A stretch of DNA of 64,000 bases from Pyropia yezoensis (lineage: Eukaryota > Rhodophyta > Bangiophyceae > Bangiales > Bangiaceae), in the NCBI GenBank assembly GCA_009829735.1, contig CM020619.1, forward strand, positions 29,352,063-29,416,062, given 5' to 3'. A program made the position numbers and the translations under genes. Numbering within the stretch: the first letter of the stretch is position 1; every line of letters begins with the position of its first letter. Below are positions 3,317-63,986 of this stretch, one piece after another. The notes under the pieces are model-generated. The model worked only from the letters and a program-made list of their open reading frames with translations, was not told the DNA's origin and searched no databases.

Positions 3317-3785
3317 TGTGGCAAAAACCACTAGCACACACGGCACCCAAGTTGGGGCGGTGTGCTATGGCTGCCTCCCGTGTCGGGGGAACCGGAAGAA
3401 GTGCAAGTCGCACACACTCTGTCCCTGTTGTGGGGCAAACCCCCCACGGACAAACAAGAGGATGGTGTGTGGTCCAACAGTTTCTTGGTCGGGACGGGGA
3501 CGCAGGGCCAAGCCCCGCTGTCCCTCCCCTTATCCCCCCAGGGTCCACTCAGAATCTCGCCACTCAGAATCTCCCACCCCAGCACGTGCCCACTGGGCCA
3601 CACGAAAATTCAAGGCGATAAATGCAGAAAACCCTCAAATCCAAGTTGGATTTACTACTAAGCTAACTATCCCAAACTTAGGGAATATGGACCCAAATGC
3701 AGGGGGAGGAACGGATCAGGCTAGTGGTCTGCCGCCCCTTGCATGGCACGTGTTGCCCCCCTACCTGGGGGTCAATACTGCCACA
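3317..3785 (-). repeat. 3' LTR of element C (469 bp)
   Basis: The ends form a perfect 7-bp inverted repeat, TGTGGCA...TGCCACA. The same sequence occurs as two solo LTRs (43164-43632 and 46386-46853) and at the edge of element D (50817-51286); the first 67 bases of the 5' LTR are seen at 12226-12292. CCCAAGTTGGG at 3346-3356 sits between the outer arms GCACAC and GTGTGC. One frame antisense to the element stays open through all copies and is Cys-rich. Confidence 0.9.
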
Positions 3786-3798: not shown

Positions 3799-4101
3799 AG
3801 TTCCGACCGACCCGGTCGGCCCTGTGAGGGGGTGCGTAAACGCACGTCTCGGCGTTGGGGGCGCGACTTGCTGTCCCCCATCGAGTACGTAACACGGATG
3901 TGGAGGCGGTCACGTTGACCTCCCCTCTCCTCAAGCTTGCCCACTCGGCAGCTTGCTCTCCTCAGTTCACACTTCACCATCACCACCACCTCCCCTTCAC
4001 CTTCCACTGGGCCACCCCACGCTGGGGAGGCCACCCGTATACCCACGATCCGAGTCCCCCTCAACTCGAGGCGGGTCTCGTGCTGCGATAGCCAGAGCAT
4101 C

Positions 4102-4120
4102 TCTCCCCAACTTGGGGAGA
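4102..4120. promoter_or_regulatory. Dyad immediately upstream of the antisense gene start
   Basis: TCTCCCCAACTTGGGGAGA is a perfect dyad with 9-bp arms around a central C, ending three bases before the ATG at 4124. It is identical in element D (51603-51621). It could be a protein-binding operator or a 5'UTR hairpin; which is unknown. Confidence 0.6.
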
Positions 4121-4123
4121 GCC

Positions 4124-6067
4124 ATGGCGACTCCGGGAGTGGAGACGGACTCTCTTGACGAGCGCATGGAGGACAACTCCTACGGGGCAGCACCCGCCGG
4201 GACTTCCGGCGGGGGCTCCGCGATCGCTCCGGGGGACGGGACTCCCGCGTCACCCGGCTTTGGGTTGACGGCGGGGTCTCCCCCGGAGGCGGGACAAGTT
4301 GTCCCGCGTGAGGCCTTGGGGCGGTGGTTTTACCCCGCTTGGCCTCTCTATGAGGAGGGGCTGACTGTTCTTCGCTGTGGCCGACTTGGCGCAGCGATGG
4401 GCCGGGTATGGGACCGCCTACGGGAGAAGTATCCCCGTAGGGTGGGGTTCCCTGCCGGCTTCAGGACGGACCAGTTTGCCTTCCTGGACGAAGAGGAGGT
4501 TGAGGACGTTCAGCGTGCCAAGGCCATTGTGGACCGCGGGGGAACTATCCCGGGTCCCGGCGACTTGCCGACCTTCACGTGGGACGCTGTGGCAACTCGC
4601 CCACCGTACCTCCACGAGGCCGATCCGCACACTCATCACTTTGATGTGCGGATGGAGAAAGACTTCCGGCGAGGTCCCTTTTTGGTGACCTCGGCTCAAC
4701 TTGAGTTTCCTCAACAGTCTGCTGCCAGTAAGGAGCAGTACTATCCGAAGAAGCCCGAGTGGTGGCCTCAAGTTGAGGTCCCCTACGGGTTCCCGGCGTT
4801 GTTGCCACGGTTGCCTGACCACTTCGGCTCCGTCATGTTGACGGCTGCCCCTGATCACCTGGTGTGGGCCATGTTGGCCACCCAGTGGCTCCTCGAGGTC
4901 ATGTCGACCTGGGTGTCCTGTGTTCAGCGGCGGGGGATGCTCTGGCATCTCCCCCTCCGGCTCCTCCAAGGTTTGGAACAGCTCACCCCTCAGCTAGTTG
5001 CTGAGGGGTGCTCATCAGGACAACTCACTCTACTTAGGGAGATGCTCCGGCTCCATAAGTTTATCGAGTGGGAGAGCATTGAGCACAAGTTGCGCCGCCC
5101 CACTCATGGGCCCAAGGACGATGGCGCACTTCGCCAGTTCGTGTGCGTCGCTCGTGAACTTCACGACGGCCGTGTGGTCCTACGAGAGGGGTTGGGCATC
5201 GGGGACTACCCGTATGCCCCGGGGGTGGATCGCCACACTGCGCCACCCCCGGACAAGCCCATCGTTATGGCCGTGCCGTCCTATGATGACCATATGACTC
5301 AACCCACTGCGGGGGCCCCAAGTCGGGGTCGCAGTTACACCCGGGTACCGCCAACTCGGCGGGCCCCTCCGCTTCCTCCTGTTCCTTTCCAACCTCACGG
5401 GAACATCCCGATCAGCGTGGCCGTGGAGTCTTCCACCCCGGTGTCCCCCAACTTGGGGGCCACCCTCCTGACGGTATACCCCAAGTTGGTGTTGCCGCCC
5501 ACGCCTCTAACCTCAGAGATGATGATCACCACGTTGGTGCGCACCATTTCCTGGTTGGCCGCGTCGACCGCAACCCTTCAAAGTTCCGAGACTACTCAAC
5601 TTGAGGAGCGCGTTCGTACTGCAGTGGCGACCGCGAGTTGCGAGTCGGTGGCGGAGTTTATGACAGCCGAGTTGGCTTGCATTGGGGCTATTATGCCCCA
5701 GCCAGCCCCACTTGGGCGTGGCAAACGTCGCGCGAGCCGGGCATACTCGCCTCCTCGCCGTCGTCGCCGACACTCGCGGCGCTCTCCTTCCGTATCGGAA
5801 GACGAGTTGTCTTACTCCGTTTCGGAGTCCTCTACCCCGTCGGAGACGGAGTCTGTCCAGCGTCTGCGTCGCAAACTTGCGCGCAAGACCAGGCAGAAGA
5901 GTGGCCACGGTCGGCGCCACTTGCGCGACCGTGAGGGGCGCGACGGTTCCGACTTGGAGCCGCCGCCCCCTCCAACGAGTGGAGACCGTTATCGGCGTGG
6001 GTCTCGCCGCTCGCCTCCACGTGAGGGCGAGGGCCGTGGAGTGGGAGAGTCTAGCATGCGTGCCTAG
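4124..6067 (+). CDS. Antisense accessory protein of element C (unknown family)
   Basis: 647 codons on the strand opposite to gag-pol, between pol and the 3' LTR. I chose the ATG at 4124 because its context is GCCATGG and it is shared with element D; the frame is open further upstream. Residues of about 1-60 are Gly/Pro/Ser-rich. A globular core of about 65-400 contains RVWDRL, YYPKKPEWWPQVEVPYGF, WLLEVMSTW and a Leu-rich helical stretch. A Pro-rich linker and a short helical segment follow. The last 115 or so residues are Arg/Ser-rich, with RRRRRHSRRSPSV-type tracts like an RS domain, suggesting nucleic-acid binding or nuclear targeting. The core resembles the antisense product of element E. 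No catalytic motif, membrane segment or known domain is recognised. The frame is intact although gag and pol of C are broken. Confidence 0.8.
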   Translation: MATPGVETDSLDERMEDNSYGAAPAGTSGGGSAIAPGDGTPASPGFGLTAGSPPEAGQVVPREALGRWFYPAWPLYEEGLTVLRCGRLGAAMGRVWDRLREKYPRRVGFPAGFRTDQFAFLDEEEVEDVQRAKAIVDRGGTIPGPGDLPTFTWDAVATRPPYLHEADPHTHHFDVRMEKDFRRGPFLVTSAQLEFPQQSAASKEQYYPKKPEWWPQVEVPYGFPALLPRLPDHFGSVMLTAAPDHLVWAMLATQWLLEVMSTWVSCVQRRGMLWHLPLRLLQGLEQLTPQLVAEGCSSGQLTLLREMLRLHKFIEWESIEHKLRRPTHGPKDDGALRQFVCVARELHDGRVVLREGLGIGDYPYAPGVDRHTAPPPDKPIVMAVPSYDDHMTQPTAGAPSRGRSYTRVPPTRRAPPLPPVPFQPHGNIPISVAVESSTPVSPNLGATLLTVYPKLVLPPTPLTSEMMITTLVRTISWLAASTATLQSSETTQLEERVRTAVATASCESVAEFMTAELACIGAIMPQPAPLGRGKRRASRAYSPPRRRRRHSRRSPSVSEDELSYSVSESSTPSETESVQRLRRKLARKTRQKSGHGRRHLRDREGRDGSDLEPPPPPTSGDRYRRGSRRSPPREGEGRGVGESSMRA

Positions 6068-6178: not shown

Positions 6179-9100
6179 TCACGTTGAGGGAGGGCTGTTA
6201 GGGTCTATCTCATTCCGGGCACAGTACGCCCGGACCTTCTCAGCGGGAAGGTCCTCCACATACTCCCACGTATCATCCTTGGCTTTGTAGCCAAACCAAC
6301 GCACCCTCAACATGAGGCGGTTAGTATCCTCATCCCAGCCGTGGTCGATGAACTTATCAAACACGTACTCCTGCGGGCCCTGTTTGGCCGCAGGCAGTGA
6401 GGGGAGGCGCCACGCTTCCAGAGCACGCGCCCAAGCTGGGTCGCCTGCAGGCGGTGGTGCAACTTTGACCACGTCCTGTCCGTTCACTGTGCGGACCCCA
6501 TCGTCAATTTCGATGGTGAAGCGCCGCCCATCAGTACGAAGGACCTGGTACGGTCCCTTCGTCTGGAATACCAGCTTACCCCCAGTTGGGGTGTGCGAGT
6601 GTACCAGCACCCAGTCACCCTGCTCGGGGACATGTTTAGCATTGCGCACCTTTTTGTCAAAGGTACGCTTGTAGCGCTTTTGTGCTTTGTCCATCTCAGC
6701 CATGACTTTAGGGATGAGGTTTTCAAGCCTAGCGGCGAACTCCGCCTTATTCTCAGTAGGAGTAGGCGTACTGCCACCATCCTCCCTAGTTGGGAGCGAC
6801 CGCCGCACGGCAATAGACCGCACGCGACGGGGGGTCACAAAAGCGAGGGTACTTCCCCTGTAGATGAGTGAACCTGCGAATTGTAGGCAGTAGTAAGGAT
6901 AGAAATGTATTGGTCCCACGTCTTCACGTGCTCACTCACATAGTGGCGCAGCTGCCTAACAATAGTTTTGTTGAAGCGCTCCACCTGCCCATTAGTTTGT
7001 GGGTGGTAGGGGGTGGCATAGTTTGCCTTAACCCCCAACATGTCCAGCACTCCCTGAAACAGTACAGACGCAAATTGCGGTCCATTGTCCGATAGTGTAC
7101 TATCTGGGATGCCATACGCGGCAACCCAGTGATCTAGGAAGGCTGACACGACCGACATGGCCGTGATCTCTGCCAGTGGGATCGCTCGCGTAAGTTTCGT
7201 GAAGCGGTCACAGATGACCAGGAGGTACTGGTTGCCCTCCTCGGTCACGGGCAGTGGCCCAAGGATGTCCATCGCCAACGCGGCGAAGGGCTCCTTGGCC
7301 GGGAACAATAGCATAGCCGTAGTAGGCCGCCGTTCCATCAGACGATTCTGTGCACAACTTGTGCAGGCAGCCACCCAACTGTAGATGTCCACCGCCATGG
7401 ACGGCCAGTAGTACCTGGTCCTCAGGGTCTGGTACAGTTTACTAGACCCCAGGTGTCCACCCGTGGGAGCGTTGTGCTCCCTCTCAAGGATACTGTCCTT
7501 GAGGGATGCGGGGACGACAAGTTGTTCGGTCCCCTGGAATACCCCCATCCTCATGAGGAGGCCATCGTCTCCCAGAAAGAAACGCGTCTCTACCACTGTA
7601 TCCAGTATATCCCTCTGCGACTTGCAGAAGGGATCCTCGGCCTGGGCCTTCACCACCTCGTCCAGGGACAGGGGCAAGTACTTCTTGTTCCCTGGCGCCT
7701 CGGGGTTCAACGCCTGACCCGAGCGCGTGACTACCCCCACGATGGGGATGTCCTCATCGACTGGGTTAGTGTCCAGCCCCTCGGTATGTACCCGAGAGAG
7801 GCCGTCGGCAAGGGCATGTTGCCTGCCAGGTCGGTATTCAATGTCAAAGTTGAAGGGTGCCAGTCGCACCCTCCACCGGTTGAGACGAGTGTTCGTACAG
7901 TCCGTCTTAAAGATGAACTGCAACGCGCGGTGGTCACAGCGGATGAGGAACTTCTCACCCTCCAGGTAGTGACGAAGTGACGTCACCGCCCACACCACTG
8001 CGAGTCCTTCCAACTCGGTGACTCCGTAGTTCTTCTCGGCCGAATTCAGCCCCTTACTAAAGTATCCCACCGGCAAGTACTCCTTGTCCGGCTGCTGCTG
8101 AAGCAACACACAACCAAGTTGGTCGTAGCTAGCGTCCACATCCAGGATGTAGTGGCCTCCCAACCTGGGAATAGCCAAGATGGGGGGCTTCAGCAGAAGG
8201 TCCCGAAGAGTCTCAAAGGATTCCTGCTCCGCCCGACCTGGGGGAGGCAGGTTCTTCGGTAGCGTTGAGCTCACTAGCTCATTCAACGGCTTCGCCACCT
8301 TGGCGAAGCCCTTGGTGAAACGTCGGTACTCGTTACACATCCCGAGGAAGCTCCTCATCTGGGTCTGGGTCCGGGGGTACTGAGCCTTACGAATGGCCCT
8401 CAAGTTCTTCTCGTTAACACTGAGACGCCCCGGATGGACAACATGTCCCAAGTACTCCACCTCTTGAGTAAAGAGGTGGCACTTACTCGCTTTCAGTGAC
8501 ACACCGGCGTCAGCAAGTAGCTTGAACACCTGGCCAAGATGGCCAATGTGTTCCTCCGGACTTCGGGAGAACACAATGATATCGTCTAGGTACACAAGAC
8601 AGATCTGCCACCGTACTCCGGCCAGAATCATGTCCATAGCGCGCTGGAAAGTTGCCGGCGCGTTGCACAGTCCAAACGGTAGACGCTTGCACTGGTAGGT
8701 ACCACAGTGACAGGTAAAAATAGTTTTATGCCTGTCCTCCGGGGCAATGGGAATTTGCCAGTACCCCGCGTTACAGTCTAGGGTAGAGAACACGTTTGCC
8801 TCCCCCAGAGAGTCCAGACAGTCATCCATCCTAGGTAGGGGATAACTGTCCTTCACCGTGCTCTCGTTGAGCTTACGGTAGTCGATACGAAACCGGGGGG
8901 TCCCATCAACTTTGGGGACGATAACCACCGGACTCGCCCACTCGGCGTTGCTGGCCTCGATCACATCGAGGGCCTCCATGCGAGCAACTTGCTCCTTAAC
9001 GAGGGCCCTTGAACGAGGTCCTCCCCTATACGGTTGTTGGCGTATAGGGGGTGCACCGGGCTTCAACTCGATCCGGTGTTGGGTGGCTCTCATGAGTCCC

Positions 9101-10170
9101 AATTGACCATCCCACAACTTGTGATATTGGTCCAAGAGGCGTTCAACTTGAACCCTCAACCTGGGGGGACACCCTCCATGTTCACATGGGGTCGAGGAGA
9201 GGCGGCCGACTTGGCTTCATGCTTCTCCTTTCCGGACTTCGGGTCGCTACTTGCGCCCGCGTTGAGGGTGACCGCTACTACCGGTCCCTCGTGTTGGTCG
9301 ATATAGCCGAACTTGGCTCCCGACTTGAAGTACTTGGGCATCGGGCTCAGGTTCATCACCTGTATCCTCCACGGGACTCCGGCTTTGGAGTCCATCGTGC
9401 CAAGGGCAACATGCACTTGGTGCTTGCGAGCAAGACGGGGGTGAGGGTGCACCAACCCGTTCCCCGTAAAATCAGTTACAACATCAACGTGCGCCACCGA
9501 GTTGGGGGGCAACGTGACTTTGCGGGCTAAACGCAGGGTAGCAGTAAACCCTTTCCTCACCGAACAAACAGGCTTCGGACTGTGAGACTGTCACAGGAGC
9601 CACAGACTTTCCCTTACCAAGGATGGGGATAGTCTCCCCATTCATCAACTTGACCCAGTACTCAGGGCCACAAATCAAAGGCACTTGTGTAACAACATAA
9701 GGGGTACCCAGAAGCAGGGGTACCGATATATTCTCAACTACGCCATAGGTCACGTCGACCTCATGGGTCCCCAACCTAGTTGGTAGGGTCACGGCACCAA
9801 CGATGGGAAGTACCCCACCATTGATGTCAATCATATGGTCAGCTTTGGACCTCCAGCGTTGGAGCTTCACCTCCTTTGGTAATAGCGACTTGCGTATCAA
9901 GGAGGCTCCTGACCCGGTATCAAGTACGATACGGGTACAGCATGCACGGCCGGGGGCAAGTTGCACCCGTCCAGCCACCTGGAAGTTCTCACCCGTCAGC
10001 ACCGCGATGACCCGACGTGGGTTTACGTTCTTGGGGAGTCCTACCCGAGGTGGGCGGACTCCCTTAGGTCGCCGCAGTATCCGGCACGGTTGGTTCGTCC
10101 TCCTGGCCCACTTGGCCGAGGCTGCCGTTGTGAGCTTCGGACGACCAGCCCCAACGGTCATTCGTTTCCG
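6179..10170 (-). pseudogene. pol: Pol of element C, frameshifted: PR-RT-RH-IN-chromodomain
   Basis: Minus-strand Pol in four pieces. 10299-9484 has the aspartic protease with VLDTGSGASL. 9560-9156 is a linker segment in another frame. 9159-6835 holds RT (FSTLDCNAGYWQIP, LPFGLCNAPATFQ, YLDDIIVF), RNase H and integrase with the HHCC finger (CTSCAQNR) and DDE residues (MDILGP, SDNGPQF, GQVERFNK). 6919-6179 is the integrase tail with a chromodomain (VRWFGYKAKDDTWEYV). Breaks lie near 9550-9570, at a C run near 9170 and in a G run at 6845-6849, where D has one more base. All catalytic residues I looked for are present, so decay is recent or partly due to homopolymer errors in the assembly. Confidence 0.88.
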
Positions 10171-17199: not shown

Positions 17200-17216
17200 C
17201 CCCCGCTGATCCACCA
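17200..17216 (-). other. Primer-binding site of element B
   Basis: TGGTGGATCAGCGGGGG on the minus strand, two bases inside the LTR, identical to element A. Confidence 0.7.
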
Positions 17217-17218
17217 AC

Positions 17219-50816: not shown

Positions 50817-51286
50817 TGTGGCAAAAACCACTTACACACGCGACACCCAAGTTGGGGCGGTGTACAAGGGCTGCCTCCCGTGTCGGAGGGAACCGGAAGA
50901 AGTGCAAATCGCACACACTCTGTCCCTGTTGTGGGGCAAACCCTCCATTGACAAACAAGAAGATGGTGTGTGGTCCAACAGTTTCTTGGTCGGGACGGGG
51001 ACGCAGGGCCAAGCCCCGCTGTCCCTCCCCTTATCCCCCCAGGGTCCCCTCAGAATCTCGCCACTCAGAATCTCCCACCCCAGCACCTGCCCACCGGGCC
51101 ACACGAAAATTCAAGACGATAAATGCAGAAAACCCTCAAATCCAAGTTGGATTTACTACTAAGCTAACTATCCCAAACTTAGGGAATACGGACCCAAATG
51201 CAGGGGGAGGAACGGATCAGGCTAGTGGCCTGCCGCCCCTTGCATGGCACGTGTTGCCCCCCTACCTGGGGGTCAATACTGCCACA
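50817..51286 (-). repeat. 3' LTR of element D (470 bp)
   Basis: TGTGGCA...TGCCACA, highly similar to the LTR of C. Followed directly by the polypurine tract at 51287-51299. Confidence 0.92.
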
Positions 51287-51299
51287 CTCCCCTCTCCTC
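51287..51299 (-). other. Polypurine tract of element D
   Basis: GAGGAGAGGGGAG on the minus strand abuts the LTR, one base different from element C. Confidence 0.85.
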
Positions 51300-51602
51300 A
51301 GTTCCGACCGACCCGGTCGGACCTGTGAGGGGGTGCGTAAACGCACGTCTCGGCGTTGGGGGCGCGACTTGCTGTCCCCCCTCGAGCACGTAACGCGGAT
51401 GTGGAGGCGGTCACGTTGACCGCCCCTCTCCTCAAGCTTGCCCACTCGGCAGCTTGCTCTCTCCGGTTCGCACTTCACCATCACCACCATATCCCCTTCA
51501 CCTTCCCCTGGGCCGCCCCACGCTGGGGAGGCCACCCGTCTACCCACGATCCGAGTCCCCCTCAACTCGAGGCGGGTCTCGTGCCGCTGTAGCCAGGGCG
51601 TC

Positions 51603-51621
51603 TCTCCCCAACTTGGGGAGA
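51603..51621. promoter_or_regulatory. Dyad upstream of the D antisense gene
   Basis: Identical to the 19-base dyad at 4102-4120 and at the same distance from the ATG. Confidence 0.6.
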
Positions 51622-51624
51622 GCC

Positions 51625-53568
51625 ATGGCGACTCCGGGGGTGGAGACGGATTCCCTCGATGAACGTATGGAGGATACCTCCTACGGTGCGGCGCCCGCCG
51701 GAACTTCCGGCGGGGGCTCCGCGGTCACTCCGGGGGATGGGACTCTCGCGTCACCCGGCTTTGGGTTGACGGCGGGATCTCCCCCGGAGGCGGGACACGT
51801 TGTCCCGCGTGAGGCCTGGGGGCGGTGGCTTTACCCCTCTTGGCCTCTGTATGAGGAGGGGTTGACTGTTCTTCGCTGTGGCCGACTTGGCGCAGCGATG
51901 GGACGGGTATGGGACCGCCTACGGGAGAAGTATCCCCGTAGGGTCGGGTTCCCTGCCGGCTTCAGGACGGACCAGTTTGCCTTCCTGGACGATGAGGAGG
52001 TCGACGACGTACAGCGGGCCAAGGCCATGGTGGACCGCGGGGGAACTATCCCGGGTCCCGGCGACTTGCCGACCTTTACTTGGGACGCGGTGGCAACTCG
52101 CCCCCCGTACCTTCACGAGGCCGATCCGCACACTCATCACTTTGATGTGCGGATGGAGAAGGACTTCCGGCGAGGTCCCTACTTGGTGACCTCGGCTCAA
52201 CTTGAGTTTCCTCAGCAGTCTGCTGCCAGTAAGGAGCAGTACTACCCGAAGAAGCCCGAGTGGTGGCCTCAAGTTGAGGTCCCCTACGGGTTCCCGGCGT
52301 TGCTGCCACGGTTGCTCGACCACTTCGGCTCCGTCATGTTGACGGCTAGCCCGGATCATCTGGTGTGGGCCATGTTGGCCACCCAGTGGCTCCTCGAGGT
52401 CATGTCGACCTGGGTGTCCTGTGTCCAGCGGCGGGGGATGCTTTGGCATCTTCCCCTCCGGCTTATCCAAGGTTTGGAACAGCTCACCCCTCAGCTAGTT
52501 GCTGAGGGGTGCTCATCAGGACAACTCACTCTACTTGAGGAGATGCTCCGCCTCCACAAGTTTATCGAGTGGGAGAGCATTGAGCACAAGTTGCGCCGCC
52601 CCACTCGTGGGCCCAAGGACGATGGCGCACTTCGCCAGTTCGTATGGGTCGCTCGTGAACTTCACGACGGCCGTGTGGTACTACGAGAGGGGTTGGGCAT
52701 CGGGGACTACCCGTATGCCCCAGGGGTGGATCGCCACACTGCGCCACCCCCGGAAAAGGCCATAGTGATGGCCGTGCCTTCGCATGAGGACCACATGACT
52801 CAGCCCACTGCGGGGGCCCCGAGTAGGGGTCGCACTTGCACCCGGGCACCGCCGCCTCGGCGTGCCCCTCCACTTCCTCCTGTCCCCTACCAGCCGCACG
52901 GGGACATCCCGATCAGCGTGGCCGTTGAGTCGTCCACCCCGGTGTCCCCCAACTTGGGGGCCAGCCTCCTGACGGTATACCCCAAGTTGGTGTTATCGCC
53001 CACGCCTCTAACCTCAGAGATGATGATCACCACGTTGGTGCGCACCATTTCCTGGTTGGCCGCGTCGACCGCAACCCTTCAAACTTCCGAGACTCCTCAA
53101 CTTGAGGAGCGCGTTCGTACTGCAGTGGCGACCGCGAGTTGCGAGTCGGTCGCGGAGTTTTTGACGGCCGAGTTGGCTCGCATTGGGGCTATTATGCCCC
53201 AGCCAGCCCCACTTGGGCGTGGCAAACGTCGTGCGAGCCGGGCATACTCGCCTCCTCGCCGTCGTCGCCGACGCTCGCGGCGCTCTCCCTCCGTGTCGGA
53301 AGACGAGTTGTCTTACTCCGTCTCGGAGTCCTCGACTCCGTCAGAGTCGGAGTCGGTCCGGCGTCTACGTCGCCAACTTGCGCGCAAGACTAAGCAGAAG
53401 AGCAGCCGCGGTCGTCGCCACTTGCGCGACCGTGAGGGGCGCGACGGTTCCGACTTGGAGCCGCCGGCCCCGCCGACTGGTGGGGAGCGTTATCGCCGTG
53501 GGCCTCGCCGCTCGCCTCCACGTGAGGGCGAGGGCCGTGGGGTGGGAGAGTCTAGCATGCATGCCTAG
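51625..53568 (+). CDS. Antisense accessory protein of element D (unknown family)
   Basis: 647 codons, the same length as the C copy with no indel between them, and an identical GCCATGG start context. Many amino-acid replacements are conservative (E/D, S/T, V/I, K/R), and the YYPK...VEVPYGF and WLLEVMSTWVSC core is unchanged. The Arg/Ser-rich tail is retained. It ends 111 bases from the convergent pol stop. As in C the frame is fully open even though pol of this element has a nonsense codon. It is on the strand opposite to gag-pol and close to the 3' LTR, so a separate antisense promoter in or near that LTR is implied; I cannot point to a TATA or initiator. Confidence 0.8.
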   Translation: MATPGVETDSLDERMEDTSYGAAPAGTSGGGSAVTPGDGTLASPGFGLTAGSPPEAGHVVPREAWGRWLYPSWPLYEEGLTVLRCGRLGAAMGRVWDRLREKYPRRVGFPAGFRTDQFAFLDDEEVDDVQRAKAMVDRGGTIPGPGDLPTFTWDAVATRPPYLHEADPHTHHFDVRMEKDFRRGPYLVTSAQLEFPQQSAASKEQYYPKKPEWWPQVEVPYGFPALLPRLLDHFGSVMLTASPDHLVWAMLATQWLLEVMSTWVSCVQRRGMLWHLPLRLIQGLEQLTPQLVAEGCSSGQLTLLEEMLRLHKFIEWESIEHKLRRPTRGPKDDGALRQFVWVARELHDGRVVLREGLGIGDYPYAPGVDRHTAPPPEKAIVMAVPSHEDHMTQPTAGAPSRGRTCTRAPPPRRAPPLPPVPYQPHGDIPISVAVESSTPVSPNLGASLLTVYPKLVLSPTPLTSEMMITTLVRTISWLAASTATLQTSETPQLEERVRTAVATASCESVAEFLTAELARIGAIMPQPAPLGRGKRRASRAYSPPRRRRRRSRRSPSVSEDELSYSVSESSTPSESESVRRLRRQLARKTKQKSSRGRRHLRDREGRDGSDLEPPAPPTGGERYRRGPRRSPPREGEGRGVGESSMHA

Positions 53569-53679
53569 TTGGCAGCTGCCTGTGTTGTGAGAGTGTGAGG
53601 GTTAGGGCTGTAGTTAAAAGCCACTCTGCGTACCACTTCGACTTGAAGCACTCTCTTGGCACTGTTAATCGGCCTTCCC

Positions 53680-55089
53680 TCACGTTGAGGGAGGGCTGTT
53701 CGGGTCTATCTCATTCCGGGCACAGTATGCCCGGACCTTCTCAGCGGGAAGGTCCTCCACATATTCCCACGTATCATCCTTGGCTTTGTAGCCAAACCAA
53801 CGCACCCTCAACATGAGGCGGTCAGTGTCCTGATCCCAGCCGTGGTCGATGAACTTATCGAACACGTACTCCTGCGGGCCCTGTTTGGCCGCGGGCAGGG
53901 AGGGGAGGCGCCACGCTTCCAACGCACGCGCCCAAGCTGGGTCGCCTGCAGGCGATGCTGCAACTTTGACCACGTCCTGTCCGTTCACTGTGCGGACCCC
54001 ATCGTCACTTTCGATGGTGAACCGCCGCCCATCAGTACGAAGGACCTGGTACGGCCCCTTCGTCTGGAATACCAACTTACCCCCAGTTGGGGTGTGTGAG
54101 TGAACCAGTACCCAGTCACCCCACTCGGGGACGTGCTTGGCGTTGCGCATCTTTTTGTCAAAGGTACGCTTGTAGCGCTTTTGTGCTTTGTCCATCTCAG
54201 CCCTGACTTCAGGGATGAGTTATTCAAGCCTAGCAGCGAACTCCGCCTTACTCTCAGCAGGAGTAGGCGTACTGCGACCATCCTCCCTAGTTGGGAGCGG
54301 CCGCCGCACGGCAATAGACCGCACGCGACGGGGGGTCACAAAAGCGAGGGGTACTTCCCCGGTAGATGAGTGAACCTGCGAATTGTAGGCAGTGGTAAGA
54401 ATAGAAATGTATTGGTCCCACGTTTTCACGTGCTCACTCACATAGTGGCGCAGCTGCCGAGCAATAGTCTTATTGAAGCGCTCCACCTGACCATTAGTTT
54501 GTGGGTGGTAGGGGGTGGCATAGTTTGCCTTAACCCCCAACATATCCAGCACCCCCTGAAACAGTACGGACGCAAATTGCGGTCCATTGTCCGATAGTGT
54601 ACTATCCGGAATGCCATGCGCGGCAACCCAGTGATCTAGGAAGGCTGACACGACCGACATGGCCGTGATCTCTGCCAGTGGGATCGCTCGCGTAAGTTTC
54701 GTGAAGCGGTCACAGATGACCAGGAGGTACTGGTTTCCCTCCTCGGTCACTGGCAGTGGCCCAAGGATGCCCAGTTCCAACGCGGTAAAGGGCTCCTTGG
54801 CCGGGAACAATAGCATAGCCGTAGTAGGCCGCCGTTCCATCAGACGGTTCTGTGCACAACTTTTGCAGGCAGCCACCCAACTGTAGATGTCCACCACCAT
54901 GGACGGCCAGTAATACCTGGTCCTCAGGGTCTGGTACAGTTTACTAGACCCCAGGTGTCCACCTGTGGGAGCGTTATGCTCCCTCTCAAGAATAGTGTCC
55001 TTGAGAGATGCGGGGACGACAACTTGTTCGGTCCCCTGGAATACCCCCCTCCTCATGAGGAGGCCATCGTCTCCGAGAGAGAACCGCGT
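53680..55089 (-). pseudogene. pol: Pol of element D, integrase-chromodomain part with nonsense codon
   Basis: Open from 55089 through the integrase zinc finger (HNAPTGGHLG, CKSCAQNR), the SDNGPQFAS and NGQVERFNK segments to a TAA at 54220-54222, where element C has Asn. The same frame then continues to 53680 with the linker and chromodomain (VRWFGYKAKDDTWEYV). In the first catalytic segment the residue corresponding to Asp of MDILGP is Gly (LGILGPLP), a second inactivating change. It keeps the G that C has lost near 54347. Confidence 0.85.
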
Positions 55090-55660
55090 TGTAGCATCCC
55101 TGGCCCCGACTTGGCGCCGACCCGGGACTACAACCAGAGGGCACCAGGTGCCAGAACACGCCCGCCGTGTGGTGATGGTTGGCGGCCGTGGCCCGTGCCC
55201 GGCACTGGGATGCGGTGGACTACGCTATCCACACGTGAGAGAGGGATTGCTGATGGGTTTTTGCATACTTGTGAGGGACTTGATTTGAGAGAATTTGAGT
55301 GTGAGATTAGTGAGTGGGAATAGAATTAGTAGTGATAGTGGCCCCCGACCTGACGAGGTTAGACTCGGGTCGGGGCCACTCGGGGTTATGGGGGGGCTAC
55401 CTGGCCAACGTGCCGAGGCTCCCCCAGATGCACGTTAAGAGGGACAGCGAGGCGCCCTTGGCCCGCGCCCTCAGGAAAAAGACAACTGCGCGTTTGCTTT
55501 CCTCTTCCCCGTGTGCACTACCGTGCGTATCTGTTTGCTCTGCGAGCAGGCACGTGAGGCAACAGGCATACCATTCTCGTAGTTCCCCTTTCTGTGTTAC
55601 CTGTCCCTTTCCCTCGAGGGATATTGACACGTGTCTGAGAGGATCGAGTTTTATACCACA
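55090..55660 (+). repeat. 5' LTR of element E (571 bp)
   Basis: It starts TGTAGCATCCC and ends TTATACCACA, followed after four bases by the primer-binding site. It shows no obvious similarity to the C/D LTR. Confidence 0.85.
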
Positions 55661-55664
55661 TATT

Positions 55665-55681
55665 TGGTGGAGCAGCAGGGG
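55665..55681 (+). other. Primer-binding site of element E
   Basis: TGGTGGAGCAGCAGGGG, identical over 17 bases to element C on the other strand at 12207-12223. Confidence 0.82.
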
Positions 55682-55874
55682 AATGATTGGAGTGTTTGAG
55701 AAGAGACATTTGGGAGCAGCGGTAGGGTTGTTCCTGTTCTGTCTTTTTCTGTGGTTTGGGGAATTATTTGCACCCGTTCACGGGAATCCCATTCCTGGCT
55801 CTCCCACCCCTCTCTTGTGGTCTGGCGATCTTTGGACACGCAGGCAACTGGACTGTGGCTGTCAAGAGACCAAC

Positions 55875-57635
55875 ATGGCTACCCTCCCTGGCACGACGGT
55901 GCCCGAAGGGGTAGACCCCGCGTCCCTTGATGCATCCCTGGTCACCGCGTGGGACGGTGCCCAACCCGGCGTTCTCCCTACGGGTGAAGCAGACCTGGGT
56001 GTGACATCCGGTAGCGGACTGGAGTCCACAGGCGGCCAAGCACCACCTGCTCCCGTTCCTCCGGCTGTTCCTCCTGTGGGAGCCACCCCGGGGTCAACGG
56101 CGTTTGAGTCCGCTCGCAGCAGACGACTCCCTCCTGTCGGTTCTACTCCTCAACCTCCAGGGATAGCCCCTGGTGTGTTTACTCCTGGACCCACACATGG
56201 CAGCTGGGTGTATACACCTCTTCCTGTGGGCACTAGCGATGCCAGAGGCACCGTTGTGACTGGTTCTACGGGTCTCCCTGAGACCTCGACTCCTGGGACC
56301 GGCCAAGCTTTTCCTCCCCTTGCATCCTATGGGGCGGGGAGCTCCAAGACTGGTAACCGGAGCAGCCGAAGGCGTCGGCGTCATCGCCGTCGCTCTAGCA
56401 CCAGCGAGACCAGTTCCTCCAGCTCTGAGGAGGGATATGATTGGGATGCATCTCCCGGTCCCACCCGGCGCAGGCTAGTCGAGTTTGACTTCCCTGCCCA
56501 CCAAGTGGGAGATGCCACCCTGAACACGGTCACGTATTGGGGTAACTACCGGCTGGAGAACCAAGACCAAGGTTACACCCGGAAGATGGCCAAGAAGATG
56601 GCGTCCCTGAACCGGCGAATGCAGCCGAGCTTCGGGGGACATCCTAAGTTTTCCGGGAAGAGACCGGCGCTTATCTTTGCCTTCCTGCGCCGGTTTGTCA
56701 AGGCATGCAATGACAACGATGTGTCCGAGGGCAAGGCTCTCTACCTCCTGGTTAACTTCATGACCGGAGAAGCGGAACAGCGGTTTGCACAGGTTCTACC
56801 AGACTCTGCCGGACACATTGTCGGACGTACCGTCGCGAGTTATCCGGAGGCGGTCAACTGGCTCCTGTCCAACTACGCTGACGCGGACTCTCTGCGTAAA
56901 GCAGTCGGCAGGCTGAACCGGGCAACCACGGAAAGACAAGAGACTCCAGAGGCGTTCGCCCGTCGTGTCCGGGAGATGAGCGATGCTTGTGGCAACGTTT
57001 ACCCTGAGGACAGGCTCAAGATGATCTTCTCGGAAGGGCTTCCTGAATATCTTCAAGTGGATGCGGAGAACTACAACCAGGAACATCAAGAACATGCCGT
57101 CCAGCAGTTGATGGCCTACACCCTGGGCAAGTACCGGCAGGCCAGGGCCCTCCAAGCTCCCATGGTATCAACTCCAAAGCCGTTGTCGCGAGTTCGACCC
57201 GGACCCGACAAGTATAAGGGAGGTGATAGCCCTGTACCGGTACTCGCAGTTGGCGAGGCCTCACGCATGGGGTCAGGGGAAAAGTGGGGCGGCTTCGTTT
57301 CCAAGGAGCAACCATCCCTGGTCGCCCCCAATCAAGTCAAGAACCAGCGGTTCCGGTCTTGTTGGCTGTGCCAGAAGGAGGATCACATGTCCTACCAGTG
57401 CCCGACCATTCCCAAGGACCTCCAGGAGAAACTCAAGCGTCAAGGACTGGTGTTTGCAAAGGCGGTCAACTGGGCTGACCGGCGAGCACCCTCCAAGATG
57501 GACCAGGCACAGGTACACGCAATCCGAGTGGCAACCTTACAGAGCATCACGGAGGCTCTGGCAAGAGAAGCTCCTACGGACTTTGACCTGGAGACCGAAA
57601 CCTCTAAGGACTCCTCGGACCCGGGAAACGAGTAG
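55875..57635 (+). CDS. gag: Gag polyprotein, element E
   Basis: 586 residues from MATLPGTTVPEG; the frame is open upstream into the LTR, but this ATG follows the primer-binding site by about 190 bases and starts a Gag-like acidic, Pro-rich N-terminus. A basic RRRRHRRRSS patch near 170 precedes the capsid domain at about 240-430 (PALIFAFLRRFVKACNDND, YPEAVNWLLSNYADADSL, FARRVREMSDACGNVYPEDRLK). The knuckle CWLCQKEDHMSYQC is near residue 497. The end, SKDSSDPGNE, is acidic. The stop TAG at 57633 is two codons after the slippery heptamer. A second in-frame ATG at 55683 would add a hydrophobic segment (GLFLFCLFLWF), so a longer form is possible. Confidence 0.9.
   Translation: MATLPGTTVPEGVDPASLDASLVTAWDGAQPGVLPTGEADLGVTSGSGLESTGGQAPPAPVPPAVPPVGATPGSTAFESARSRRLPPVGSTPQPPGIAPGVFTPGPTHGSWVYTPLPVGTSDARGTVVTGSTGLPETSTPGTGQAFPPLASYGAGSSKTGNRSSRRRRRHRRRSSTSETSSSSSEEGYDWDASPGPTRRRLVEFDFPAHQVGDATLNTVTYWGNYRLENQDQGYTRKMAKKMASLNRRMQPSFGGHPKFSGKRPALIFAFLRRFVKACNDNDVSEGKALYLLVNFMTGEAEQRFAQVLPDSAGHIVGRTVASYPEAVNWLLSNYADADSLRKAVGRLNRATTERQETPEAFARRVREMSDACGNVYPEDRLKMIFSEGLPEYLQVDAENYNQEHQEHAVQQLMAYTLGKYRQARALQAPMVSTPKPLSRVRPGPDKYKGGDSPVPVLAVGEASRMGSGEKWGGFVSKEQPSLVAPNQVKNQRFRSCWLCQKEDHMSYQCPTIPKDLQEKLKRQGLVFAKAVNWADRRAPSKMDQAQVHAIRVATLQSITEALAREAPTDFDLETETSKDSSDPGNE
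57623..57629 (+). promoter_or_regulatory. -1 frameshift heptamer GGGAAAC, element E
   Basis: It is in register as G-GGA-AAC, followed by GAG-TAG. The -1 frame is open from here to 61723. The first ATG in it is at residue 20 counted from 57764, well inside the ORF, so frameshifting is the most economical route to Pol. A weaker bulged hairpin CAG-GTA/TACCTG lies about 50 bases downstream; no strong adjacent stem was seen by eye. Confidence 0.75.
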
Positions 57636-60600
57636 GGCAGGCGCTCTCCCCAAGTGTCTTCCCGAATCTCCGACGGCAGGGTACTTCTACCTGTTCTCCC
57701 CATGCGTGCCAGGAGAAAGGACGGCAGTTACCCGCTCAACCGGTAGCCGCCTGGACACCCTGCTTGTTCAAGGGGACATTGCTCGTCCTGCGTAAAGAAA
57801 ACCTCAAGATTAATGCTCGTATGCGTGTGGGGGATAGCCTCCCCCAAGCTGTTACGCCGGTTGTTGACACGGGAGCCGGACCAAGCGTCATCACTGAGAA
57901 CCTGTTACCTCCGGGCTGGCGTCGACATTCCTGGAGAGCGCCTACCCGGACCCATATCGTCGACGCTTCGGGTCAAACCCTACGACCGCTTGGCCGTCTT
58001 CCTGTCGCCATCCATGTCAACAATGAACCAACGCTTTTTCCCTTTCTAGTAGTCAAGACCCTATCAGTCTTCCTCATCCTAGGCTGGGACTTCCAGAAGC
58101 AGCATGTCAAGAGCATCCTACCCGGAGAAGGGAAGGTCCAGTTCAACCATGGGTTTGTGTCACCGGTATTGGAGCATCTGGACGCCAAGGTTCGTGTAGC
58201 CAAGAGCAAGAGGGAACGCATCCCACCCTCTACCTTGACTCTCTTCAAACCGGTGCTCCTACCTCCTCGCTCGGAGACCAAGGTTCAAGTAACGACCCGG
58301 ATTGCAGGTCAATGCCTGATCTACGGACGTAAGGAATTTCTGGCGAAACACCGGTTATACTTGGCCCACGGACATCACAAGAAGGTAGAAAGGCACACCC
58401 CGTTCTCGGTGCTAATCGTCAACGTGAGCCGGAAGCCAATAACCCTCGCCAAGGGCACCCGAGTTGGTACAGCAGAGCCTTACCGGGGATCCGCCCGTGC
58501 TATGAGCAAGGAAGACCTCCTGAACCTGCAACAAGAACTGGCATCCAACTTGACGGCCTTAGACGTACCTCCGAAGCAAGAGCAGGCTGGCAGCGCTACT
58601 CCAAAACCCGAACAAGCACCACCCGGGATGCCGAAGGTCAAGCAAGAAAGTGTCCCTCCCGACTTGAAGGAGGCACTGGAGAAGCTTCTCCAGGAATATC
58701 GGCACCTGTGGTCGGGAGAGCTGGGCAAGATGGACGCCACTCTACACCGGATTCAACTCAAGCCGGAAGCTAAGCCAGTGCACATGCAACCATATTGGGC
58801 CGGACCTCATCGCCGGGATGAGATTGAGAAGCAGGTTAACAAGATGCTCAAGATGGATGTTATCGAGCCGTCTGATGGCGAGTGGGCTTTCCCGGTGGTA
58901 GTCGTCCCGAAAACCGGCGGTCACTTCCGTTTCTGCGTTGACTACCGGCGCCTGAACGAGATGACAGTCAAGGACGTATACCCGATACCCCGGATGGATG
59001 ATTGCCTCGACTTTCTTGGTGATGCCACCCTCTTCTCGACGCTGGATTGTAATGCCGGTTACTGGCAGATCCCTCTGGCTGACGAGGACAAGGACAAGAC
59101 CACCTTCACGTGCCACCTGGGACTATTCCGGTGCAAGCGTCTTCCTTTTGGTCTCACCAATGCTCCGGCGACCTTCCAAAGAGCCATCGACATCATCCTG
59201 TCCGGGCTATGGTGGAGAACATGTTTGGTCTACCTGGATGACATTATCGTTTTCTCCAAGACCCCAGCGGAACACCTGGAGCACCTTCGGGTGGTCCCGG
59301 CCCTCCTGTCCAAGGCTGGAGTTACCCTCAAGGCCGAGAAGTGCCACCTGTTTGAGACTGAGGTGGAGTATCTGGGGCATGTGCTGAGTCCGGGGGAGCT
59401 CCGAGTCAATGAGAAGAACATCAAGGCCCTCCGGCATGCACGGCAACCCAAAACCCAGACGGAACTCAAGAGCTTCCTGGGTATGTGCAACGTCTATCGC
59501 CGGTTCGTACGGGACTATGCTCTGATTGCCCGGCCACTGACCAAGCTGACCAGCAAGAAGCTTCAAGCACAACTCCCAGTGTTCGACGAGAAGCAGACGG
59601 CGGCCTTCGAAGAGCTCAAGAAGCGCCTGACCACCACTCCAGTACTGGCGTTACCCAAGCGGGAGGGCCAGTTTGTTCTGGAGACGGATGCCTGTGGCGT
59701 CCAGGTGGGGTGCTCACTACTCCAGCAGGAACCTGATGGGCACTTTCTCCCGATAGGCTACTACAGTCGCGTCTTGACTCCAGCTGAGAAGAACTATTCC
59801 ACGACCGAGCGCGAGTGCTTGGCAGTCGTCTTGGCTTGCTTCCTGTTACGGCCATATCTTGAAGGACAAGAGTTCCTCATCCGGACGGACCACGCCAGCC
59901 TAAGGTGGCTGCTATGCATGGACAGCAGTCAAGGAAGGGTCGCCCGGTGGCGCCTACGCCTTTCGGAGTTCAAGTACAAGGTGTGCACCAGAGCAGGGAG
60001 GGAGCACCACTGCGCCGACACCATGTCCCGGCTGGAGACTCCTGCAGCCGATACCGGTCCTATCCCGGAGGAAATACCTTGCTTCATCCTCCCGAATGTC
60101 GGACGTGGCTGGCACGCTCCCCTGTATGAGACACCTGAAGCTCATCAACCGGTGACCATTCACCGGATGCTGGAGGCACAACTGACGGATCCTCAATGCT
60201 TGGAGCTTCGCCACCAAATGGACCTGAACCGGAACAGTCGTTTCTCCGAGTCTACGGACGGACTCCTAGTACGGGTGTCACCCTTCGATGGGGCCACTCA
60301 AGTCTGCGTACCCCGGGGCCTACGAGCTGACATCCTACGCCTGGAGCACTCGTCTCCCCAGGCCGGACATCCTGGTATCAATCGGATGTATGCTTCCATG
60401 AGACGCCACTATTACTGGGAAACCATGGCCAGTGACGTCCATAAGTACCTGGAGGCTTGTGTTTCGTGTGCAAGGAACCGGTTGTCCCAGAGGAAGAAGA
60501 CTTCTAAGCTACGCCTATTCCCTGCGGCGGAGCCCTTTGCAAGCTTAAGCATGGACATCCTGGGGCCCCTACCTGAAACATCCAGTGGCAACATATACCT

Positions 60601-61723
60601 GCTCATCATATGTGACCGGTTCTCCAAGTTCACTCGAGCAATCCCGCTGAGGACCATCACGGCTCTGGATGTCACGTCAGCCTTCTGCGAGTACTGGATA
60701 GCTGCCTACGGCCCTCCAGACTCCGTCTTAACCGACAACGGTCCCCAGTTTGCATCCCTGTTCTTCCAAGGAGTCTGTGACCTGATGGGCATCAAGAACT
60801 TGTACACTACGACGTACCACCCTCAAACGAACGGCCAGGTGGAACGATTCAACCGGACCCTAGTAGACATGCTACGGCACTACGTGGAGGAGCACCAAGA
60901 AGACTGGGACGAGCTCCTGGCTGTCCTCACTCTAGCCTACAACTCCCGAGTTCACCGGACAACGGGGGTCGCTCCACTCGACTTTGTCACCCCAAGGCGG
61001 CTGACCAACTTCTCCCTGGAAAGAATACCAGACGGTCTCCAGCCTGCACTGAAGTCAGGTCCCAAGGCAAAGGATGAGTTCCTGGAACAACTGCAGCTCC
61101 TGCTCCCAAGAGTCAAGGAGTCAATCTCGAAGACCCAGGAGCGATACAAGCGGGGCTATGACAAGGGCGTTCGGGAAAAGAACAAGGAACTGGGTGGTGG
61201 CGACTGGGTTTTTGTGGACAACCATAGCAAGACCCGGGGGAAGCTGGACTCAAAGACGGATGGACCTTATGAGATCCTGAATACGGACGGTTGGACCTTT
61301 CTTCTAGACGTGGATGGCTCCCCGTACCGCGTGAGCAGCGACCATGTCACCCGAGCTCCACCGCCAAGCCAACGGGACTTGACCCGGCGCAAGCGGGCCG
61401 CAGTACCCTGGCTATCCCAAGAAGAAGGTCGGGAATATGTCTACGTCAAGTTTGTGGACCATGCCTGGAGAGACGGACGCCTGTACCTGCGAGTACGCTG
61501 GTTCGGTTTTAACCCGGCAGATGATACCTGGGAGCCCTCAAACCGGCTACCCATCGCGGATGTCTGTGCCTACACGCGACGGAACGGGATAGAGGGCACT
61601 CCAGTGGCCAGAGCCGGCAAGATTCTGGAGTCGGACTCGGAGGAGGACCAAGAGGATGGGGCCATCCAAGACCCTCGGGACGAGCCGAGTTCATCCGCAA
61701 CGGATTCGGAACAAGAGGATTGA
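57623..61723 (+). CDS. pol: Pol of element E: PR-RT-RH-IN-chromodomain
   Basis: About 1366 residues in the -1 frame, complete. From 57764 as residue 1: protease VVDTGAGPSV at 33-42. RT with FRFCVDYRRLNE, FSTLDCNAGYWQIP, LPFGLTNAPATFQ and YLDDIIVF near 490. RNase H with LETDACGVQVGC, ERECLAVVLA and IRTDHASL. Integrase with an H-H-C-C finger (HSSPQAGHPG, CVSCARNR) and DDE segments MDILGPLP, TDNGPQFAS and NGQVERFNR. A chromodomain, EYVYVKFVDHAW...LRVRWFGFNPADDTWEP, lies near 1235-1280 and would steer integration to marked chromatin, followed by an acidic Ser-rich tail. All catalytic residues are in place and no stop or frameshift is seen. Confidence 0.94.
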   Translation, partial: GKRVGQALSPSVFPNLRRQGTSTCSPHACQEKGRQLPAQPVAAWTPCLFKGTLLVLRKENLKINARMRVGDSLPQAVTPVVDTGAGPSVITENLLPPGWRRHSWRAPTRTHIVDASGQTLRPLGRLPVAIHVNNEPTLFPFLVVKTLSVFLILGWDFQKQHVKSILPGEGKVQFNHGFVSPVLEHLDAKVRVAKSKRERIPPSTLTLFKPVLLPPRSETKVQVTTRIAGQCLIYGRKEFLAKHRLYLAHGHHKKVERHTPFSVLIVNVSRKPITLAKGTRVGTAEPYRGSARAMSKEDLLNLQQELASNLTALDVPPKQEQAGSATPKPEQAPPGMPKVKQESVPPDLKEALEKLLQEYRHLWSGELGKMDATLHRIQLKPEAKPVHMQPYWAGPHRRDEIEKQVNKMLKMDVIEPSDGEWAFPVVVVPKTGGHFRFCVDYRRLNEMTVKDVYPIPRMDDCLDFLGDATLFSTLDCNAGYWQIPLADEDKDKTTFTCHLGLFRCKRLPFGLTNAPATFQRAIDIILSGLWWRTCLVYLDDIIVFSKTPAEHLEHLRVVPALLSKAGVTLKAEKCHLFETEVEYLGHVLSPGELRVNEKNIKALRHARQPKTQTELKSFLGMCNVYRRFVRDYALIARPLTKLTSKKLQAQLPVFDEKQTAAFEELKKRLTTTPVLALPKREGQFVLETDACGVQVGCSLLQQEPDGHFLPIGYYSRVLTPAEKNYSTTERECLAVVLACFLLRPYLEGQEFLIRTDHASLRWLLCMDSSQGRVARWRLRLSEFKYKVCTRAGREHHCADTMSRLETPAADTGPIPEEIPCFILPNVGRGWHAPLYETPEAHQPVTIHRMLEAQLTDPQCLELRHQMDLNRNSRFSESTDGLLVRVSPFDGATQVCVPRGLRADILRLEHSSPQAGHPGINRMYASMRRHYYWETMASDVHKYLEACVSCARNRLSQRKKTSKLRLFPAAEPFASLSMDILGPLPETSSGNIYLLIICDRFSKFTRAIPLRTITALDVTSAFCEYWIAAYGPPDSVLTDNGPQFASLFFQGVCDLMGIKNLYTTTYHPQTNGQVERFNRTLVDMLRHYVEEHQEDWDELLAVLTLAYNSRVHRTTGVAPLDFVTPRRLTNFSLERIPDGLQPALKSGPKAKDEFLEQLQLLLPRVKESISKTQERYKRGYDKGVREKNKELGGGDWVFVDNHSKTRGKLDSKTDGPYEILNTDGWTFLLDVDGSPYRVSSDHVTRAPPPSQRDLTRRKRAAVPWLSQEEGREYVYVKFVDHAWRDGRLYLRVRWFGFNPADDTWEPSNRLPIADVCAYTRRNGIEGTPVARAGKILESDSEEDQEDGAIQDPRDEPSSSATDSEQED

Positions 61724-61868: not shown

Positions 61869-63986
61869 CTACTCCCGGCGCGGACGCTGAGCCGCGGGAG
61901 TGTCCTCCAGCGCTGCCTCCGCGGCACGACGGGAACCGGAGGAAGACGGGATGACGTAGTGCGGTGGACGCGGTGCATCCCGGTATGACGCCATCGGAGT
62001 AGTACCGGTAGTTGCCGGGGGCTCCCGCTCATCCAGATATGCCCGTCGGCGCCCCTGGAAGCCAGTGAAGGTTTCTGACCACTGCTGGGCCAAGCCATGC
62101 CGCGTCAAGGTCGCCAGAAGTTCGCCAACCACCGGGCTGTTCGACATCTGGCCGCTGTCCGCGCAAGCAAACACCCGGTTAACCACGTTGTTCAAGACGC
62201 TGGCGTGAGTACCCAGCACCAGGGAGGACCCAACGCCTTCAACCTGCACCGGAAGACGACCCAGCTGGTCTTCAATCATACCGACGTCGTACTGGTCGCA
62301 TGTCGGGCCACCTTGGTTCAGGTACCAGTCAGGCACCCGGAAGCGGGTAAGGCGCAGAGTCGGCGCCGGAATCTCGAACCGCCCCGAGGATGACACCACC
62401 GGACGGTCCACAACGGCCCCAGAAACCGGAGTACCCAACTCCAGCGGAGGCACAGCGCCGCCGGCGTTGGAAGAAGACGTCCGAGGCGGAGCGGCCGGAG
62501 TGGTAGGCGACCGCACGGTCACCCCCAGACTCGCCGCAGACAGGCGCGGTGCCGGGGGAGCTTGAAGTACCGGCACAGCCGGAACAGGGCGTGAACGCGC
62601 CGGCGACGGTTCAGGCGAGGCCACCGGGGCGACAGGTGCAACAGGAGGAAGCGGAGCCGCCGCAGACGCCTGACCGACCGCCGCGGCCCATCCCGACTCC
62701 TGCACCGTCGGCCCAACTGGCAGAAGATCAAGGGCGGCCGGGGCAGGAAAGCTACCTAGCTGCGGCCACGCCGGAAGCGGCGTCGCCAGCTGCACCTCGG
62801 CCGGAGAAGACTGGTAGACCACCTGCGCCCAACCGAAGCCATCCCGACGCGGGCGGTTCTGGTCGGCAATCGCGTTCAAGAAGTTCCGGTCATGCACCGG
62901 CACCAGACGCCGGAAGTCAATCATCGCCTGGAAGAGCCCCTTGTACTCTTCGTCCTGGCTGCACAGGAAGTCGACGGTCAACTTGTCGACAATCCAGACC
63001 ATCAGGAGGTCAGGGAGAAACCAAAGCCGGTTGGACACCAAGACCTCGTGAAGCCAGTGGTTGGCCGCCAAGACTGTCATCTCGGACGTGTACATCATGT
63101 ACGGGATCGAGTGGAAGAAGCCCTTGATCGACGCCTGAGTCAAGGCGTCCAAGAAGTACCAGGTGAAGGGGATGCTGGAAGGAGCAAACCCGACCGGGAT
63201 CTCGACTTTCTGCTGCTGCGGGATGACCTTGGGGTAGTACGCCGCCCGGTTAGCCTTATCCAGCTTCCAGAACTCCTGATGGTTGCAGCTCACGAGGAAG
63301 TCACGCTGGCGGCCGCGTCGCTCGCCTTGCTCCCGTGCCGGTGACAACTTGGAGTACTTCCGGGTCAGGAAAGGCGGCTGGAGAGCGACCATGCTCGGAC
63401 GGGGGTCGCAGTTCAGGCTCCCCGACCCCTTGAGCGCCTCGTCCCAGACCTTGAGCGCCCGGTGGACGTACCCTTCCTCCGCCGGCAACCGGAGAACGGA
63501 CGCGGACACGCGACGCTAGGTCAAGGGCAGATCCAGCACCAGCGCGAAGGGGAGATCCTCCAGACGAGCAACCCAGGAGGAACCCGAGAAGCTCTGGGAG
63601 CGGTCTTGTGCCAGGCGCATCTGGTCCGCCGTGTGAAGACGAGCCTTATCCATCTCTGTCAAGACCCCGCGCTGGAGTTCCTTGCGCCAGAGGTCCAAGC
63701 AATCCTGCTGGCACTGGGCCGCGCCGGCGTTGCCGACCACCGTGGAGTAACGCCGGGCCGCCAGAGGGTCCTGCCCAAGAAGCATCTCCGGGAGACCCAC
63801 CGGGGGGGTCTCGACCGGGTGCATCACAGAAGCCGGGGGAACCCGATCCGTCCCCGCCGTGGCGACCGGCGCCGACATCGACACCCGAGGAACCGGAGGC
63901 AGGAGAGGGGCGCGACTACCCGAGTTCTCCTCCGCAACACTCGCCGCCGGAACCACGGGCCCAGCTTGGATCTCGGAACTGGACAT
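61869..63986 (-). CDS. Antisense accessory protein of element E (in-frame TAG)
   Basis: Read on the minus strand from ATG 63986: 156 codons of Pro/Ala/Ser-rich sequence and a helical WRKELQRGVLTEMDKARL segment, a TAG at 63516-63518, then 546 more codons in the same frame (next ATG 63509) to 61869. The second part has a core like the C/D protein: EEGY...VWDEAL, AAYYPKVIPQQQKVEIPVGF, TVLAANHWLHEVLVSNRLW and LPDLLMVWIVDKL. A Pro/Ala-rich linker and a C-terminal helical region (ADSGQMSNSPVVGELLATL) follow, with a modestly basic end instead of the RS tail. The amber codon could be a recent mutation, a readthrough site or mark a separate upstream ORF. No known domain is recognised. Confidence 0.72.

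Follow-up and report, generated by a model that had tools for sequence, protein, structure and literature searches.

Whether gypsy retrotransposons of the red alga Pyropia yezoensis carry a working gene on the strand opposite to gag and pol was the question raised by this locus, a stretch of 64,000 nucleotides of contig CM020619.1 (hereafter, the window). An earlier note, made from the letters of the sequence, had pointed to a minus-strand open frame in element E, near the right-hand end, and had claimed that it shares its place, its orientation and a protein core with an open frame in a second family (elements C and D), as an old, useful accessory gene and not a chance frame. The features concerned are collected in Table 1; further copies were sought in the genome (107.5 Mb in 11 contigs).

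Table 1. Retrotransposon features in and beside the window (L061, the 10 kb to its left; L062, the 4 kb to its right).
Feature	Position	Strand	Evidence or remark
A gag	308..2086	-	third family
A 5' LTR	2389..2927	-	identical to 3' LTR at L061:2691-3229; target duplication TTCCG
A antisense gene, 900-codon open frame	L061:3449-6148	+	opposite strand to pol
C 3' LTR, TGTGGCA...TGCCACA	3317..3785	-	followed by complement of polypurine tract
C antisense gene, 704-aa open frame, likely start Met 4124	3953..6067	+	111 bp tail-to-tail from pol
C pol	6179..9159	-	RT, RNase H, integrase 6835-9159; chromodomain match 6179-6919
D element as far as E insertion	50817..55089	-	3' LTR, antisense gene, pol end
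D antisense gene, 704-aa open frame, likely start Met 51625	51454..53568	+	ORF, C-D comparison
E 5' LTR, 571 bp	55090..55660	+	99.8% identity to E 3' LTR
E gag open frame	55314..57635	+	zinc knuckle match weak, E=0.02, below cut-off
E pol	57764..61723	+	protease (weak), RT, RNase H, integrase, weak C-terminal chromodomain match
E antisense gene, main part, 546 aa	61869..63509	-	ORF; C/D homology; dN/dS by domain
E core query segment, 236 aa	62802..63509	-	part homologous to C/D and A = residues ~27-225
E gene N-terminal piece	63516..63986	-	severed by in-frame stop in E copy
E 3' LTR	L062:171-741	+	LTR match

Element E is a complete, young insertion within the pol gene of D, since its LTRs are 99.8% alike (about one difference in 571 bases), the 5-bp target duplication CGCGT stands on both sides (55085-55089 and L062:742-746), and the interrupted pol frame of D picks up again in L062 after the E 3' LTR. 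The gag open frame of E starts within the 5' LTR. The antisense frame runs from 63986 to 61869 and is also open beyond 63986 to the end of the window, extending to the right past it; the 3' LTR starts at base 171 beyond the window. Only one in-frame stop, at about 63516, cuts the gene, leaving ORFs of 156 and 546 aa, while the remaining five frames of the same stretch have 6-19 stops each. This site was open in the related proteins P0001 and P0005 and in 29 of 30 E-type loci fetched from the genome, the exception being E itself. An alignment divided by eye resolved the main part into a conserved core, a Pro/Ala-rich linker, a second constrained domain and a tail.

The note was right that E has its gene in the same place and orientation as C and D, and the arrangement recurs in a third family: in A, C, D and E, an antisense ORF lies between pol and the 3' LTR, on the strand opposite to gag-pol. 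Pol and the antisense gene converge, with 111 bp between their ends in C and D, 145 bp in E and about 128 bp in A. The candidate start codon of C is 338 bp away from the 3' LTR, that of E 184 bp, and the likely start Met is common to A and C/D in alignment (METT.../MATP...). The LTR pair of A is identical over 541 bp, so that A moved recently, and its antisense frame is open. Copies of the A/B family at 1-2927 and 14831-17757 are 99.8% identical over 2927 bp; the antisense gene of B cannot be judged, because the 3' end of B falls in a gap of 500 Ns (12293-12792). All four integrases end in a chromodomain match (PF00385) that is below the curated cut-off (E, 7.5e-4; A, 1.2e-3; C, 4.1e-5; D, 1.1e-4); a 2012 survey describes retrotransposon chromodomains as not detected in the Pyropia yezoensis data of that time (PMC3350952).

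Elsewhere in the window, a solo LTR of the C/D family is present at 43164-43632, with target duplication GATTG, and a second C/D-type LTR copy occurs at 46386-46853 with no visible target duplication. A defective gene-bearing element between these two (43.2-46.9 kb) was considered; none was detected by tblastn and self-comparison, and the first LTR is solo. The window also contains a GC-rich repeat array at 21854-23685, with 27 copies of a 65-nt unit (two of them elsewhere) and a recurring CCAAA core, lying within long open frames; repeats with a 13-nt step at 37924-38621; and two host-type genes, for a cupin domain protein (24540-25901, minus strand) and a formiminotransferase N-terminal domain protein (32081-33526, plus strand).

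The E core proved to be homologous to the C/D protein. BLASTP gave 23% identity over 166 aa (E=5e-8), the homologous core covering about 160 residues, and the observed score was reached by one of 2000 block shuffles for D-E and by none of 2000 for each of D-P0001, C-E and P0003-P0001. The profile check that had been suggested also gave a significant match: weaker with hhalign (E=5e-5, probability 67%), where the profiles were practically single sequences, and clearer with a profile of the A, C, D and P0003 cores from which E was left out. The latter scored E at 41.9 bits, P0001 at 41.2 and P0005 at 20.2, all above the top score among 20,000 block shuffles (16.0 bits); four shorter E-type relatives that lack much of the core (P0002, P0004, P0006 and P0007) fell outside the best 25 lines of this test. 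The antisense protein of A was homologous to both: a tblastn alignment of 412 aa with C showed 32% identity (E=3e-44), one of 454 aa with D 31% (E likewise about 1e-44), and a BLASTP alignment of 210 aa with E 24% (E=4e-8).

The motifs on which the comparison had originally been based fared unequally. YYPK...VE(V/I)P(Y/V)GF was aligned in every comparison, but the supposed pair EEG...VWD was not homologous, VHRALKVWDEA of E being aligned with DVQRAKAxVDRG of C/D. For W-L-x-EV the methods disagreed: hhalign set HWLHEV of E on QWLLEV, while BLASTP, MAFFT and HMMER set it on STWVSCV of C/D. Of the region put forward for comparison, residues 65-400 of the C protein, only a core at about residues 180-370 of C/D was significant.

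Divergence of the antisense protein was compared with that of the integrase, with the A-family copy at locus L066 standing for A. Integrase identities were 70% (A-C), 59% (C-E) and 56% (A-E), against 32%, 23% and 24% for the antisense protein; the two series are roughly parallel within the gene-bearing clade, as expected if the genes were inherited together. On these sequence comparisons, the antisense gene predates the divergence of the three families, A, C/D and E, from one another.

Selection on the backward frame was evident from the window pair, which carries no selection bias in how its members were chosen: C and D differ at 143 sites, distributed 27/22/94 by codon position (dN 0.035, dS 0.182), and their integrases show dN 0.022 and dS 0.155. 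Among genome copies, where dN is lowered because the copies were picked as best protein matches, dN/dS was 0.19 for C/D (30 fetched, 28 used, 22 stop-free), which is near the value of 0.167 for the pol C-terminus of the same loci (26 of 28), and 0.073 for the E core (all 30 loci used). Third codon positions accounted for 62% of the differences in C/D and 77% in the E core. By stretch, the C/D gene gave 0.155 for residues 57-205, 0.118 for the core, 0.19 for 401-500, 0.35 for 501-585 and 0.25 for the tail, while the stretch before the likely start Met was weakly constrained (0.62); these values used 25-28 of 28 copies each, and the whole gene 22 of 28. In E (29-30 of 30 loci), dN/dS was 0.55 in the linker, 0.21 in the second domain and 1.09 in the tail; at these loci the pol tail gave 0.45 (26 of 30). 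The antisense frame is a real protein gene, and one under purifying selection.

Two other explanations of the frame are affected by this result. The window holds 146 ORFs of 120 aa or more, many of which overlap others and so must be chance, which would speak for a chance frame in GC-rich DNA; homology across three families combined with protein-level selection refutes this, leaving it practically no credence, and the description of the gene as old and useful is borne out by the same evidence together with the profile match. Alternatively, the antisense RNA might be the active product, pairing with genomic RNA and setting copy number through double-stranded RNA. The transcript of the gene would indeed complement genomic RNA, and such a role has been discussed (PMC7264820), but selection acts on amino acids (dN/dS 0.19 in C/D and 0.07 in the E core, with differences mostly at third positions); an RNA role, possible in addition, cannot explain it, and this explanation was considered highly improbable.

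The gene is abundant in the genome. The copies listed for each query were the best candidates, and are biased to intact copies, with stops counted by hand. The D protein matched at least 63 places (among those listed, 45 of 63 stop-free and 18 with stops), the E core at least 150 (146 of 150 stop-free, four with stops) and a 421-aa query from A at least 100 (82 of 100 stop-free, 18 with stops). Among the matches listed, diverged A-type copies stood at 73, 67 and 50%; a search with P0002, in which the best 124 of 673 candidates were scored, found E-type places 57-68% identical to it.

A survey of the position downstream of pol in other elements, likewise suggested at the outset, was carried out on a sample: four places were taken from the 150 best integrase zinc-domain matches and followed for 4.5 kb onward from the domain. 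One of these (L066:1-4500) was a copy of family A, in which an internal deletion in the antisense gene took out the core; its upstream frame is Cys/Pro-rich and repetitive. At the other three (L063, L064 and L065), no antisense-protein match was found at E<=0.01 within the 4.5 kb; their integrases were only 28-34% identical to those of A, C, D and E, and were placed apart from them in the integrase tree. The pol frames of these three members of a second gypsy clade measured 1186, 1255 and 1361 aa, the antisense gene being absent there. The gene extends to a third family, but the three sampled elements of another gypsy clade were without it, and it is not common to all gypsy elements of the genome.

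No known family accommodated the protein. Pfam yielded nothing for the antisense proteins up to E<=10 (HMMER), PF04195 included, and neither did NCBIfam, so that these searches point to no domain that binds DNA or RNA. Three PDB sequence matches (E 0.23-0.37) and a weak match to a PHROGs tape-measure family (one of six members, E=0.07) were judged to be chance. Scans of viral_contigs with E, D and a joint alignment returned no relative, and about 5.8 billion proteins, searched three times with 8000 candidates scored on each occasion, yielded seven relatives altogether, among them the EukProt gene models contig_9112_g2169 and contig_9543_g2287. Derivation from Gag was also examined and set aside, as BLASTP against the Gag and Pol frames tested gave nothing significant (best E 1.8).

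These searches bear on the idea that the clade's ancestor acquired a host or foreign-virus gene in a single capture and took over its function. As capture would suggest, no relative turned up in the three sampled elements of the other gypsy clade, nor outside such sequences; set against this, neither the protein search nor the viral scans, at the depth given above, revealed a clear host or viral homologue, and capture was thought improbable. Being a hypothesis of origin, capture would not conflict with the explanation of function preferred below.

An envelope-like protein in unusual orientation would suit the location between pol and the 3' LTR. However, the gene is antisense, and hydropathy revealed no clear transmembrane-like stretch, the highest 19-residue value, 1.54 in E, coming from a segment that contains charged residues; hence the protein is not Env-like, and this option was given hardly any weight.

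For the antisense accessory genes of LTR retrotransposons, whose best descriptions come from plants, a review gives no known function (PMC7264820). In plant Ty3/gypsy elements such as Grande (gene23), RIRE2 and PvRetro13, additional antisense ORFs between pol and the 3' LTR are termed aORF-3R (PMC7264820); like the gene of A, C, D and E, they occupy that place in many copies. The plant genes are present in most copies of a family and conserved like other element genes; the many copies of the red-algal gene and its dN/dS beside that of pol in C/D (0.19 against 0.167) would fit the same pattern, though one A copy has lost the core. The Grande gene is reported to have its own promoter and a nuclear location (PMC7264820), and a regulatory role has been proposed for the antisense genes of both Grande and Retand (PMC7264820, PMC11963269). 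The present gene differs in belonging to a red alga and to elements with a chromodomain-like integrase end, and in that its protein matched no Pfam or NCBIfam family. Antisense ORFs of the Retand lineage carry the TRP28 domain, PF04195 (PMC11963269), for which the red-algal antisense proteins scanned gave no match (Pfam, E<=10); Pfam gave no support to a suspected likeness between the core and plant TRP28, and any tie would have to be a remote one, beyond the filters of HMMER. Moreover, Retand elements are non-chromoviruses of flowering plants, while A, C, D and E have the sub-cut-off chromodomain match. Beyond plants, Boty of Botrytis/Sclerotinia is likened by its description, as cited in PMC7264820, as a retrotransposon with an antisense ORF, and the retroviral genes HBZ of HTLV-1 and APH-2 of HTLV-2, as cited in PMC11963269, are antisense and encode nuclear proteins; these last belong to another group of elements, and the red-algal proteins are without any Pfam match. 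Given the anatomy of the plant genes, the missing TRP28 match and the chromodomain-like integrase end, the red-algal gene is classed as a variant of the antisense accessory genes, probably with an independent origin. In the open-access literature searched, chiefly titles and the openings of abstracts, no report of an antisense gene in red-algal gypsy elements was found.

By analogy with Grande and Retand, the explanation tentatively preferred, at slightly less than even probability, is that this is an antisense accessory gene of a Ty3/gypsy clade that encodes a nuclear regulator. The clade comprises families A/B, C/D and E, with chromodomain-like integrase ends and the gene tail-to-tail with pol. 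Antisense transcription would start from a promoter in or beside the 3' LTR; the protein, in which a Pro-rich linker connects the core to the second constrained domain, would be a trans-acting nuclear accessory factor with a regulatory task, controlling LTR transcription or chromatin, or relieving silencing. The sampled elements of another gypsy clade manage without it. The basic, Arg/Ser-rich tail of the C/D protein speaks for a regulator. Against one, this tail is weak in E and absent from A, so that nuclear targeting is not a shared sequence feature; the family searches point to no nucleic-acid-binding domain; constraint applies to parts only (dN/dS 0.55 in the E linker and 1.09 in its tail); and some copies are broken, by stops or by the loss of the core in L066.

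The tail of the C/D protein is also one reason to consider instead a structural or RNA-handling helper, acting Rev-like in export of genomic RNA, or in packaging or particle assembly, and not a regulator of transcription or silencing. The two constrained domains of E, with a weakly constrained linker between, would also fit a helper, and there is precedent for nuclear export of genomic RNA needing a retrotransposon protein (PMC10309623). Conversely, A does not share the basic tail, and neither a family match nor a significant BLASTP match to the Gag and Pol frames tested was obtained. A helper of this kind was regarded as rather unlikely.

The nuclear regulator can be framed more boldly, as a protein family absent from the libraries searched, ancestral to the whole red-algal chromodomain-type clade, that supplies an antisense-encoded regulator acting in trans against host silencing, and that arose independently of Retand and Grande; put so specifically, the proposal is doubtful, if still a serious one. 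For the study of these elements, the gene provides a further case in which to ask what antisense genes do, in a different, strongly constrained protein family that is present in three families of one red-algal genome, along with the means of asking: its copies are numerous and nearly identical, its constrained domains are mapped, and more distant gypsy elements that lack it can serve as natural controls. If the bolder proposal were true, the opposite-strand slot behind pol would be a recurrent solution, reached in very distant hosts.
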